From Polaromonas jejuensis NBRC 106434 (lineage in GTDB: Bacteria > Pseudomonadota > Gammaproteobacteria > Burkholderiales > Burkholderiaceae_C): 64,000 nucleotides of DNA. Below are positions 59,661 through 64,000 of this stretch, in pieces (position 1 is the first letter of the stretch; each line of letters begins with the position of its first letter). The notes beneath the pieces were generated by a model. It saw only the letters and a list, made by a program, of their open reading frames with translations, was not told the origin of the DNA and did not search any database. Both the position numbers and the translations under genes were made by a program. The stretch lies in assembly GCF_001598235.1 (NCBI RefSeq), contig NZ_BCYO01000001.1, positions 310,001-374,000 on the forward strand. Reading direction: 5' to 3'.

Positions 59661-60386
59661 GTGTGGCGTGTATTGATTGTTGAAGACGATGCGCAGATGC
59701 GTGAGTTTTTTGCGGCGAGCGTGTCGCGCTGCGATCGGCTGGAGCTGGCGGCCAGCGTGGGCACGCTGGCCGAGGCGCGGGCCTGGCTGGACGACCCGGC
59801 CAACGCCGTCGATGTGCTGCTGACCGATCTGGGTTTGCCCGATGGCAGCGGGCTGGACGTGATCCGCCACGCCACCGGTCTGCATCCGGCTTGCGAGCCG
59901 CTGGTGATCTCGATGTTTGGCGACGAAGATAACGTGCTGGCCAGCATTGAAGCCGGTGCGCTGGGCTACATCCACAAGGATTCAACACCCGACGATATTG
60001 CCCTCACCATTCTGGAGATGAAGGGCGGCGCCTCGCCGATTTCCCCCATGATCGCGCGGCGGGTTTTGTCCAAGTACCGTTCTGATCGCCGACAGCAAGG
60101 CAGGGATCGTACAGCCATGGAACAAGCACCGATAGCCATCAAGAGCGAAGCGGTCGAAAATATTGACATCGTGACGCGGCGCGGCTTGTTATCGCCACGC
60201 GAGCAGGAAGTTCTGGCCTTGATCGCCCGCGGCTTTTCCTACGCGGAAATCGCGCGCTTGCAGGGGCTGAGCGTGCACACCGTGCAGACGCATATCAAAA
60301 ACCTCTATGGGAAACTGTCCGTGCATTCCAAGAGCGAGGCGGTGTTTGAAGCCACGCGCATGGGTTTTCTGTCCCGACATGACTGA
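59661..60386 (+). CDS. NarL/LuxR-type response regulator
   Basis: A 241-residue two-component regulator. Receiver domain: LIVEDDAQMREFF, the phosphoacceptor Asp in LLTDLGLPDGSG, and a Lys in YIHKDSTPDD. C-terminal LuxR HTH: LSPREQEVLALIARGFSYAE then LQGLSVHTVQTHIKNLYGKL. GTG at 59661 follows AGGGGGGG and gives the family's short N-terminus; a TTG at 59634 would add nine residues. Probably works with the kinase at 60698. Confidence 0.88.
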   Translation: MWRVLIVEDDAQMREFFAASVSRCDRLELAASVGTLAEARAWLDDPANAVDVLLTDLGLPDGSGLDVIRHATGLHPACEPLVISMFGDEDNVLASIEAGALGYIHKDSTPDDIALTILEMKGGASPISPMIARRVLSKYRSDRRQQGRDRTAMEQAPIAIKSEAVENIDIVTRRGLLSPREQEVLALIARGFSYAEIARLQGLSVHTVQTHIKNLYGKLSVHSKSEAVFEATRMGFLSRHD

Positions 60387-60435
60387 TAAAGGCATTCGAC
60401 CGGGCGTTCGATGCACGGCGTAGGGCTTCGCTAAG

Positions 60436-60690
60436 ATGCGCTTCTCCCTGAAGCATTGCTGTCTTTTAAAATGTCTGTTTCTTTGCTGTTGCGCGCTGAT
60501 GTTTGCCGGTCTGGCCGTGTCGGCGCAAGCGTGGGTGACGGTTCAGGGCCAGACCACGCGCGAGACGGTCAGCCTGCCCTACCATTGAGAACGCCATTGC
60601 GCGGGCCTGGCTGGTGAGGCGACTTTTGAGCAGCCGTTCGAGCTGGCAGAGGCGCCGACGGCGCCCTTAAGTAGGTATAAGCAGGTATCC
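60436..60690 (+). pseudogene. Relic of a sensor-protein gene (signal peptide plus start of an extracellular domain)
   Basis: From ATG at 60436 it encodes MRFSLKHCCLLKCLFLCCCA and AQAWVTVQGQTTRETVSLPY, then TGA at 60586. Read past the stop in the same frame, conserved-looking codons go on for about 30 residues (GEATFEQPFELAEAPTAP) before the pattern fails near 60690. A Trp (TGG) to TGA change followed by deletion of the rest would explain this. The place, between a response regulator and a histidine kinase, suits a lost membrane sensor. The family match (7TMR-DISM-type sensor) is from memory. Confidence 0.55.
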
Positions 60691-60697
60691 TCGCCCC

Positions 60698-61903
60698 ATG
60701 CATTGGCTGACCCTGCGATTTTTGGATCCCGGCCTGGAACGCGCGTTCGCAGAGTCGTTCTTGCCACGGGTACTGCGTCAGGGCCAGATCGCGGTGTGGA
60801 TGGGCATGTTGGTCTATGTGACGCATGGCCTCTTGTTGGACTGGCAATCGCCCGCGCTGGCGTCCGCACAGCCGCTCGGTGGTTTGTGGGGCATGCGATG
60901 GACTGCCATGCTGGTTCCCGTGCTGGTGTTGGTGGTGTGTCGCACGCGGTGGTTCGCCCCGCACTGCCACCTGTGGCTGTCGTCGGTCGGGTTTGCGGCC
61001 GGCTGGGGCCTCACTGCCATGCAAACCCAGGTGACGGAGCAGCATGCAGTGGCGTTTTACCCGCTGATGGTGGAAGTGGCGTTTTACACCTACAACTTTG
61101 TCGGGGCTCGCTTCATCTACGCACTCGGTGTCGACCTGACGCTTCTGGCGGTGTACAACGTGGTTTTCGGCTTCCTGTTTCCCTACCCGGCGCGGGAACT
61201 CCTGGGGCACGATTTCTTTCTCTTCTCAGCCAATCTGATCGGTGGCACGGCAGGCTATCTGGCGGAGCGCCAACGGCGGCGGCTTTTTTTGCAGACGCAA
61301 GAGCTCGCGCGCACGCAGGCCCGCATGCGCGAAAGCGAGGCGGCGCAGGCCCGCGCCCGCATCTTGCGTGACATGCACGACGGCGTGGGTTCGCACATCA
61401 GCACGGCTATCCGGCAGCTGGAATCCGGACGGGCGACCCAGGACGACGTACTGCACACCCTGCGCGATTCGCTGGACCAGCTCAAGCTGTCGATCGATGC
61501 CATGAATCTGCCGCAGGGCGACATCACGGCCCTGCTGGCCAATCTTCGCTATCGGCTGGAGCCGCGCCTGGCTGCATCCGACATCGAGCTGCAGTGGGGC
61601 GTGGACCTGCTGGAGCCGATAGAGCGCCTGGATGCACAGGCCATGAGGCAGCTGCAATTCATGGTGTTGGAGGCGCTGTCCAATGTATTGCAGCATGCCC
61701 AGGCCAGCGTGCTGCGCATCGAGGCGGCGATGACACCCCGGGGCATCCGGCTGCGCCTGGTGGACAATGGCCATGGCTTTGATGTGATGGTCCCGCTGCG
61801 CAAGGGCCTGCAGTCAATGCGCGAGCGGGCCCAGGCGATTGGCGCCACGCTGTCGCTGCACAGCGCGCCGGGGCGCACGGTGGTCGAAATCCTGATTCCC
61901 TGA
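60698..61903 (+). CDS. Membrane histidine kinase, NarX/DegS-like (HisKA_3)
   Basis: A 401-residue kinase with about six hydrophobic segments in the first 190 residues and no periplasmic sensor of note. The dimerisation box is RILRDMHDGVGSHISTAI (His227), the N-box is VLEALSNVLQHAQAS, the G-box is VDNGHGFD, and it ends GRTVVEILIP. Its N-terminus (MHWLTLRFLDPGLERAFAES) resembles membrane domains of Comamonadaceae cyclases (from memory). It likely phosphorylates the regulator at 59661, and sits after the sensor relic. Confidence 0.85.
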   Translation: MHWLTLRFLDPGLERAFAESFLPRVLRQGQIAVWMGMLVYVTHGLLLDWQSPALASAQPLGGLWGMRWTAMLVPVLVLVVCRTRWFAPHCHLWLSSVGFAAGWGLTAMQTQVTEQHAVAFYPLMVEVAFYTYNFVGARFIYALGVDLTLLAVYNVVFGFLFPYPARELLGHDFFLFSANLIGGTAGYLAERQRRRLFLQTQELARTQARMRESEAAQARARILRDMHDGVGSHISTAIRQLESGRATQDDVLHTLRDSLDQLKLSIDAMNLPQGDITALLANLRYRLEPRLAASDIELQWGVDLLEPIERLDAQAMRQLQFMVLEALSNVLQHAQASVLRIEAAMTPRGIRLRLVDNGHGFDVMVPLRKGLQSMRERAQAIGATLSLHSAPGRTVVEILIP

Positions 61904-61940
61904 GGCTCCGGCCCCGGCGCAGCGCGCGGGATAATAGCGC

Positions 61941-63095
61941 ATGACCGCCGTTTTCGACAAACCTTCGCTGTATCGGCGAACCCTTCCCCTGCTGCAAGGC
62001 TTTGATGGCCTGCTGGCTTTTGCGGTGTTTCTGCTGGCCTGCGCCGGCCTGTTGATCATGTATTCGTCGGGCTACGACCATGGCACCCGGTTTTACGACC
62101 ATGGCCGCAACATGCTGATCGCGGGGGCCATCATGTTTGTGGTGGCGCAGATCCCGCCGCAGCGCCTGATGACCCTTGCCGTGCCCTTGTACGTGGTGGG
62201 GGTGACCCTGCTGGTGGCGGTGGCCGTTTTTGGCATCACCAAGAAGGGGGCCAAGCGCTGGCTCAACGTCGGGGTGGTGATCCAGCCCAGTGAAATCCTC
62301 AAAATCGCGATGCCGCTGATGCTGGCCTGGTGGTTCCAGAGGCGCGAAGGCCAGTTGCGGCCGCTGGATTTTCTGGCCGCGCTGATGTTGCTGGTGGTGC
62401 CTGTCGGGCTGATCATGAAGCAACCCGATCTGGGCACCTCCTTGCTGGTGCTGGCGGCGGGCCTGGCGGTCATTTTCTTTGCCGGCCTGAGCTGGCGGCT
62501 GATTGTGCCGCCCGTGCTGCTGGGCCTGGTGGGCGTTTTTCTGGTAGTGTGGTTTGAGCCGCAGCTGTGTGCCGACGGCATGCGCTGGCCCATCCTGCAC
62601 GACTACCAGCAGCAGCGCATCTGTACCTTGCTGGATCCGTCACGCGACCCGCTGGGCAAGGGCTTTCACATCATTCAGGGCATGATTGCGATCGGCTCGG
62701 GCGGTGTCTTCGGCAAGGGATTCATGGCCGGCACGCAAACGCATCTGGAGTTCATTCCCGAGCGCACGACCGACTTTATTTTTGCGGCCTTCTCCGAGGA
62801 GTTTGGCCTGATCGGCAACCTGCTGCTGATTGTCGGTTTCATCTTCCTCATCCTGCGCGGGCTGGCCATTGCGCTGGAGGCGGCGACGCTGTTTTCACGG
62901 CTGCTGGCCGGTGCGCTGACGTTGATTTTTTTCACCTACGCCTTCGTCAACATGGGCATGGTCAGCGGCATCCTGCCGGTGGTCGGTGTTCCGCTGCCCT
63001 TCATCAGCTACGGCGGAACGGCCATGGTGACGCTGGGGCTGGCCATCGGCATGCTGATGTCGATTGCCAAGGCCAGGCGCCTGGTGCAGACCTGA
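61941..63095 (+). CDS. rodA: Rod-shape SEDS glycosyltransferase RodA
   Basis: A 384-residue polytopic SEDS protein. FDGLLAFAVFLLACAGLLIM opens the helices; KKGAKRWLNVGVVIQPSEI, TQTHLEFIPERTTDFIFAAF and LPFVSYGG-like LPFISYGGTAMV are RodA marks (FtsW has TLPLMSYGG). It elongates glycan strands with PBP2. It stands alone here: no mreBCD or mrdA adjoins it, unlike the common operon. Confidence 0.94.
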   Translation: MTAVFDKPSLYRRTLPLLQGFDGLLAFAVFLLACAGLLIMYSSGYDHGTRFYDHGRNMLIAGAIMFVVAQIPPQRLMTLAVPLYVVGVTLLVAVAVFGITKKGAKRWLNVGVVIQPSEILKIAMPLMLAWWFQRREGQLRPLDFLAALMLLVVPVGLIMKQPDLGTSLLVLAAGLAVIFFAGLSWRLIVPPVLLGLVGVFLVVWFEPQLCADGMRWPILHDYQQQRICTLLDPSRDPLGKGFHIIQGMIAIGSGGVFGKGFMAGTQTHLEFIPERTTDFIFAAFSEEFGLIGNLLLIVGFIFLILRGLAIALEAATLFSRLLAGALTLIFFTYAFVNMGMVSGILPVVGVPLPFISYGGTAMVTLGLAIGMLMSIAKARRLVQT

Positions 63096-63116
63096 GGCCT
63101 TGCCGTGCGGCAAGCC
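63096..63116 (+). terminator. Hairpin after rodA
   Basis: GGCCTTGCC pairs with GGCAAGCC around GTGC, directly after the rodA stop. There is no T-run, so it is only a possible terminator or 3'-end stabiliser. Confidence 0.35.
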
Positions 63117-63178
63117 ACGGGGTAAAAGCGGTCTGGTCACTTGTTCAACGCTGAGTCCTGCCTTCAAGGAGCATCTTC

Positions 63179-63361
63179 ATAGCTGGTAAATTTGAGCTCA
63201 AGAAATCCAGGAACGACAAGTATTACTTCAGCCTGCTGGCGGGCAACGGGCAGGCGATAGGCCAAAGCCGGATGTACTCCAGCGAAACGGCGCGCGACGG
63301 CGGCATCGAGTCGTGCAAAACCAATGGGCCGGGGGCTGCCGTCGTTGATTTGACGAGCTGA
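63179..63361 (+). CDS. YegP-like (DUF1508) 60-residue protein with an ATA start
   Basis: The frame encodes AGKFELKKSRNDKYYFSLLA then GNGQAIGQSRMYSSETARDG and GIESCKTNGPGAAVVDLTS, a full single YegP/DUF1508 repeat (GNGQ, GIES and D-T at the end). No ATG, GTG or TTG precedes it in frame: the codons upstream of the domain are GTC CTG CCT TCA AGG AGC ATC TTC ATA, after a TGA. AAGGAG at 63166-63171 stands seven bases before ATA at 63179, an ideal spacing, so ATA is the likely start. Function unknown. Confidence 0.8.
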   Translation: MAGKFELKKSRNDKYYFSLLAGNGQAIGQSRMYSSETARDGGIESCKTNGPGAAVVDLTS

Positions 63362-63462
63362 GCGGCTTTTCAGCGAAAAATCCTTTCGCATCGCGGCCCT
63401 GCCTGGATGGGTCGGGTGGCCTTGCCGCCGCAAGCCCAAGTCAGACTGCCTACAATCGGCGG

Positions 63463-64000
63463 ATGACCTCACTCAAATCCGCTGTCGCGTCCGCTCGTCA
63501 AACCACCGTGGGAGCGAAGCCGCTGGCACGCCCCACCCATGAGTCCACCTCGCAGCGTCTGGTCATCGCGCAAAAACTCCTGCTGGAACCGTTTGGCCTC
63601 AATGATGCCGCCCTGAGCCGCGCCCTGGGCGAAATCACCTCCTACGGCGTGGATGACGCCGATCTGTATTTCCAGTACACCCGCAGCGAAGGCTGGAGCC
63701 TGGAAGAGGGCATCGTCAAGACCGGCTCCTTCAGCATCGACCAGGGGGTGGGCGTGCGCGCCGTCAGCGGCGAAAAAACCGCATTCGCCTATTCCGACGA
63801 TATTTCCGAAGCCTCGCTGCTCGATGCCGCACGCACCGTGCGCAGCATCTCGGGGGCTGGCAAGGCCGGCCGGGTGAAAACGCCGGGCCGCAAAATTGCC
63901 AGCAGCCGCTCGCTCTACCAGGAGCTGGACCCGATTGCCACCCTGGGCAGCACGGCCAAGGTCAAGCTGCTTGAAAAAGTGGAAAAACTCGCCAAGGCCA
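63463..64000 (+). CDS. tldD: Metalloprotease TldD (5' part; cut by the window edge)
   Basis: 179 residues are visible, about a third of the gene. SYGVDDADLYFQYTRSEGWS and EEGIVKTGSFSIDQGVGVRA, with ISEASLLDAARTVRSI, are typical of the TldD N-terminal domain. TldD pairs with TldE (PmbA) in peptide processing and microcin maturation. The active-site HExxxH lies beyond the edge. ATG at 63463 is the first in-frame start. Confidence 0.9.
   Translation, partial: MTSLKSAVASARQTTVGAKPLARPTHESTSQRLVIAQKLLLEPFGLNDAALSRALGEITSYGVDDADLYFQYTRSEGWSLEEGIVKTGSFSIDQGVGVRAVSGEKTAFAYSDDISEASLLDAARTVRSISGAGKAGRVKTPGRKIASSRSLYQELDPIATLGSTAKVKLLEKVEKLAKA

Follow-up and report, generated by a model that had tools for sequence, protein, structure and literature searches.

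The ATA codon at the start position of a one-domain yegP in Polaromonas jejuensis is probably a trace of gene decay

Does an ATA codon behind a Shine-Dalgarno-like site mark a gene that starts there, or is it the relic of an ordinary ATG? The question arises near the end of the window, i.e. the whole 64,000-nt stretch of Polaromonas jejuensis NBRC 106434 DNA analysed here, where a plus-strand open frame of 68 codons runs from a stop at 63152-63154 to TGA at 63359-63361 and encodes a DUF1508/YegP domain. Its codons read GTC CTG CCT TCA AGG AGC ATC TTC ATA GCT GGT AAA and so on. As the sequence-only reading had noted, ATG, GTG and TTG are all missing from its early part; counted from the ATA (63179..63181), the first of them is an ATG at codon 32 (63272..63274), and a start there would leave only 29 residues. 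The AAGGAG (63166..63171) does lie exactly 7 nt (63172-63178) before the ATA. Two other in-frame codons come into view, but the CTG at 63158 lies 5′ of AAGGAG, so that the objection already raised to its spacing holds, and the ATC at 63173 follows AAGGAG by 1 nt. Because of these positions, neither is better placed than the ATA.

The frame clearly belongs to the DUF1508/UPF0339 (YegP) family, since it matched PF07411 with an E-value of 2.9e-18 and 65.9 bits, above the gathering cut-off of 22. From the ATA it comprises 60 codons plus TGA (63179..63361, plus strand), and we assign this segment as a yegP remnant from the DUF1508 match and the comparison with syntenic orthologues described below. 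It is not a chance frame, because the syntenic orthologues align with it codon for codon, a deletion excepted. No second YegP was found in the genome (5.13 Mb, 79 contigs) at E ≤ 1. Predicted RNA folding around the start was ordinary (z −0.34), Rfam gave no match at gathering score in 60000-64000, and a simple scan of 62900-63600 found neither a sigma-70-like promoter nor a terminator.

The neighbours of the frame are those of intact yegP in the genus. Upstream lies rodA (61941..63095, plus strand; PF01098, with TIGR02210 above its cut-off), and downstream a tldD/pmbA-like gene (63463..63999, plus strand; PF01523), which is cut by the window end; the TldD model NF008006 scored below its cut-off on the 179-residue part that the window holds. 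In collections with one genome per species, a YegP match at E ≤ 0.001 was present in 25 of 87 Polaromonas genomes, that of the window included. YegP precedes tldD in 23 of these 25, and is itself preceded by rodA in every case where the contig is long enough (in G013 it is not); in the remaining two, G035 and G038, YegP occurs only where the fetched locus includes neither rodA nor tldD. The place between rodA and tldD is thus common to the window and to its two-domain orthologues in the genus.

For the locus survey we took the stretch before tldD for 80 tldD matches in 79 other genomes of the genus and for the window, which makes 81 loci in 80 genomes, with G025 contributing two; seven of the 87 genomes had no tldD match at the cut-off. 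Besides the window, 22 genus copies of yegP were found at the locus. One of them, in G013, is cut by the contig end and has no readable start; the other 21, four of them frameshifted, all have ATG at the homologous codon. The same was true of all 23 copies read outside the genus, not all of them syntenic. These came from the 26 loci L031-L056, from which we omitted L040 and L043 as repeats of genus genomes and L056 as weak. ATA therefore stands at this codon in none of the 44 other copies. A+G-rich sites like AAGGAG also precede the ATG of orthologues, in leaders read both in the genus and outside it. The trait of an intact two-domain yegP at this point is an ATG at the MAGKF position, and the window has ATA instead. 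An alignment of orthologues was the check that the sequence-only reading had proposed, and the ATG that it had named as grounds for refuting an ATA start does stand in close relatives (21/21 in the genus, 23/23 outside). Its suggestion that the ATA is a point mutation of ATG is supported accordingly.

The second difference from the orthologues is larger. All 17 intact genus copies encode two tandem DUF1508 domains in 110-111 residues, as in the two-domain YegP proteins (UPF0339/DUF1508, PF07411) of known structure, e.g. E. coli YegP (2k8e) and SO_3888 (2k49). The window shares with this form both half-domain sequences and the MAGKFEL start region, but holds a single hybrid domain and lacks one 153-bp repeat, in addition to having ATA for ATG. 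Its beginning resembles domain 1 (IAGKFELKK, mostly MAGKFELKK in the others), and its end resembles domain 2 (ARDGGIESCKTNGPGAAVVDLT). Its 60 codons correspond to codons 1-25 of domain 1 and codons 77-111 of the two-domain gene, and the difference is an in-frame loss of 153 bp, or one repeat period.

The orthologue of G005, in which the repeats that encode the two domains lie 153 bp from each other and show ~70% identity over the stretches found, illustrates the fit. A split with a 153-bp jump matches 139 of 180 bases of the window's frame, compared with 112 for domain 1 alone and 116 for domain 2 alone. We tried six of the 17 orthologues in this manner, and all six fitted the window best as a split, which means that one repeat period is missing from the gene in the window, with the frame preserved. 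The best split offsets were 59-68 against G005 and 58-77 over the six. We place the deletion at the GGCGGGCAA stretch (63238..63246, plus strand), present in both G005 repeats; no exact breakpoint can be assigned, and with other orthologues the deletion falls within a few codons. Judged from these alignments, yegP does not normally have just one domain here. What had been described as a complete single-domain YegP gene is rightly assigned to DUF1508, but it is a two-domain gene minus a 153-bp repeat, and its completeness is not supported.

Taken against functional orthologues, as is usual for pseudogenes, the frame shows two lesions, the lost ATG and the 153-bp deletion. We consider it probable that it is a recently damaged two-domain yegP, silent or nearly so and on its way to loss. 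The DUF1508 repeats would have recombined, or slipped during replication, near the shared GGCGGGCAA, so that one 153-bp unit was lost in frame and a hybrid domain was left. The start codon would have changed from ATG to ATA, in whichever order the two lesions arose, with the ribosome binding site still in place. Nearly half of the coding region is gone, and the ATA is best read as loss of the ATG. Together, the lesions would abolish function; the remnant would be silent or yield only traces of protein, and it would be heading for loss. If so, the locus is a small, clear example of the decay of a tandem-domain gene, in which an in-frame deletion of one repeat leaves a complete-looking frame, and a seemingly exotic start codon is the trace of a lost start. 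It also calls for caution: a good Shine-Dalgarno sequence before a non-AUG codon is, without orthologues, not evidence of unusual initiation.

Absence of the gene is frequent in the genus. In the stretches fetched, YegP was not matched at E ≤ 1 in 58 of the 81 tldD loci. In three of these 58 (G015, G035 and G038) rodA was not found in the stretch either, so that the locus must be arranged otherwise there. On a quick rodA and tldD tree of 73 of the 81 loci, from which eight with partial or missing rodA were omitted and in which 15 of 70 inner branches are weak, the distribution of yegP requires at least 9 changes between presence and absence. The window falls in a clade of 11 rows (SH-aLRT 97 on this tree); among the other ten, yegP is intact in five, frameshifted in two (G014 and G020) and missing from three (G062, G019 and G021).

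The frameshifted copies are not all alike. In a piecewise reading, 6 of the 43 columns that are invariant in intact copies are changed in G020, which suggests real decay, although the intact G017 departs equally often (6/49, leave-one-out); for the remaining intact copies the count is 0 to 4. G014, G053 and G036 show 1/43 departures each, so their frameshifts are recent or are sequencing errors; the latter may apply to G014 in particular, as its frameshift sits in a run of T. With many genomes lacking it and some copies frameshifted, yegP is dispensable in Polaromonas.

Several loci differ in the length of the interval between rodA and tldD. Some genus genomes have ~1 kb extra between rodA and yegP, perhaps another gene, and the rodA-tldD interval reaches 1.4-1.9 kb in L109, L110, L112, L115 and others. 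In one clade without yegP (L101, L102, L103, L104 and L106, from G002, G007, G018, G026 and G046), it is 247-307 nt long and contains repeated G+C-rich stretches, e.g. CTGCCCCCCGAGGGGGC and GGTCTGGCAAAGCCAGT, which look like interspersed palindromic repeats.

The codons that remain in the window do not by themselves prove decay. They contain no stop and no frameshift. Pairwise dN/dS between the window and the intact orthologues was about 0.12-0.36 (computable for 15 of 17), within the range of intact pairs as obtained from 10 of the 17 copies. If the start codon is left out, one of 17 invariant columns is changed in the window, by V26A at a valine invariant in the 17 intact orthologues, and the window has 6 private residues; over the same 58 codons, intact copies have 0 to 9 private residues and 0 to 4 departures. 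Neither dN/dS nor the private-residue counts separate the window from intact copies, so that prolonged neutral drift has left no sign. This would fit young lesions as well as a protein that selection still maintains, and the substitution data are compatible with both.

The second of these options leads to the rival that survives best, though we hold it to be doubtful: the repeat deletion may have produced a viable single-domain YegP, translated at a low level from AUA with the help of AAGGAG. Such a protein might pair with itself and so replace the two-domain form. An intact frame, few private residues and a dN/dS like that of intact pairs all speak for it, as do the single-domain UPF0339 proteins (Atu0232, 2k7i, 83 aa; 6q2z, 60 aa; NCBIfam HVO_2922), among which 2k7i and 6q2z are solved structures with two chains each. 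These proteins have one DUF1508 domain and a length similar to that of the window's frame, and since such structures exist, a product with one domain could plausibly fold. Nevertheless, their similarity to the window is weak (E 3e-5 and 9e-4), the HVO_2922 model gave 25 bits on it against a cut-off of 90, and the window form, unlike them, is the deletion product of a two-domain gene. An AlphaFold model of the 60 residues, made without an alignment, was too poor to judge the fold (mean pLDDT 62.7, pTM 0.42). Among the paper titles listed for YegP/DUF1508 and UPF0339/HVO_2922, there was no study of what the protein does.

Initiation at AUA has precedent. According to PMC13009471, infC, ccpN, citZ and cvfC1 of S. 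aureus have AUA or AUU behind a Shine-Dalgarno sequence, as the window has ATA, and the AUA codons of infC, ccpN and citZ are reported to serve as starts. In poor medium, the AUA reporters of ccpN and citZ described there gave about 10% of the output with AUG, and in rich medium that of ccpN gave up to 30%. For citZ, the AUA is stated to be conserved among strains of a single lineage (NCTC 8325), so that finding an AUA in one lineage alone does not prove that a gene is dead; strictly, conservation of the codon in relatives is not required of an AUA-start gene, although the window shows none (0/44). The part of PMC11497404 that we consulted contained nothing on the strength of AUA initiation.

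The comparison with S. aureus also has another side. In PMC13009471, the S. aureus AUA and AUU starts are backed by ribosome profiling, those of ccpN and cvfC1 also by conservation, in the case of the ccpN AUA between species, and the sites are described as having extended Shine-Dalgarno pairing; the window's ATA recurs in no relative read here. With ATA in 0 of 44 other copies and a single-domain form in 0 of 17 intact genus copies, we see no sign of selection for either, and the frequent absence of the gene in the genus also weighs against this rival. If AUA were used nonetheless, the window would offer a case of AUA initiation outside infC that is specific to one lineage. In a still bolder variant, which we regard as quite improbable, the repeat slip returned YegP to a single-domain state and the lineage then fixed AUA, with low and perhaps condition-dependent product; if true, nature would here have coupled the loss of a domain with a non-canonical initiation codon.

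There is only a slim chance that position 63181 is really G, misread as A in sequencing or in the consensus, and that the true gene is an ATG-started single-domain deletion product. Just one base is involved, and ATG occurs in all other readable copies. However, the same short gene carries the 153-bp deletion, which base-calling error does not make, and collapse by the assembler is unlikely because the G005 repeats share only about 70% identity. That an altered gene should acquire a further lesion would be less surprising than an error falling precisely there. CTG is a rare bacterial initiator, and a start at the in-frame CTG 63158 is scarcely credible, as AAGGAG would then fall inside the coding region, no such site was seen upstream of the CTG, and homology with the orthologues begins at the ATA codon.

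We also observed two features beside the main question. YegP copies of a Desulfobacteraceae MAG and an Acidobacteria MAG (L054 5001-5156 and L055 1560-1715) have identical first 30 residues and identical 20 nt upstream, perhaps through contamination of one bin or through transfer. Downstream of yegP, TACAAT ends 6 nt before the tldD-like ATG in 71 of 76 loci with a placeable start, 7 nt before it in 4 and 5 nt in 1; in the window the feature lies at 63446-63456, the other genus loci have it at the equivalent place, and CTGCCTACAAT occurs within 60 nt of the tldD start in 68 of 81 loci. A −10 element so near the tldD start would imply a transcript with almost no leader, so that in the whole genus tldD may have a promoter of its own and be leaderless.
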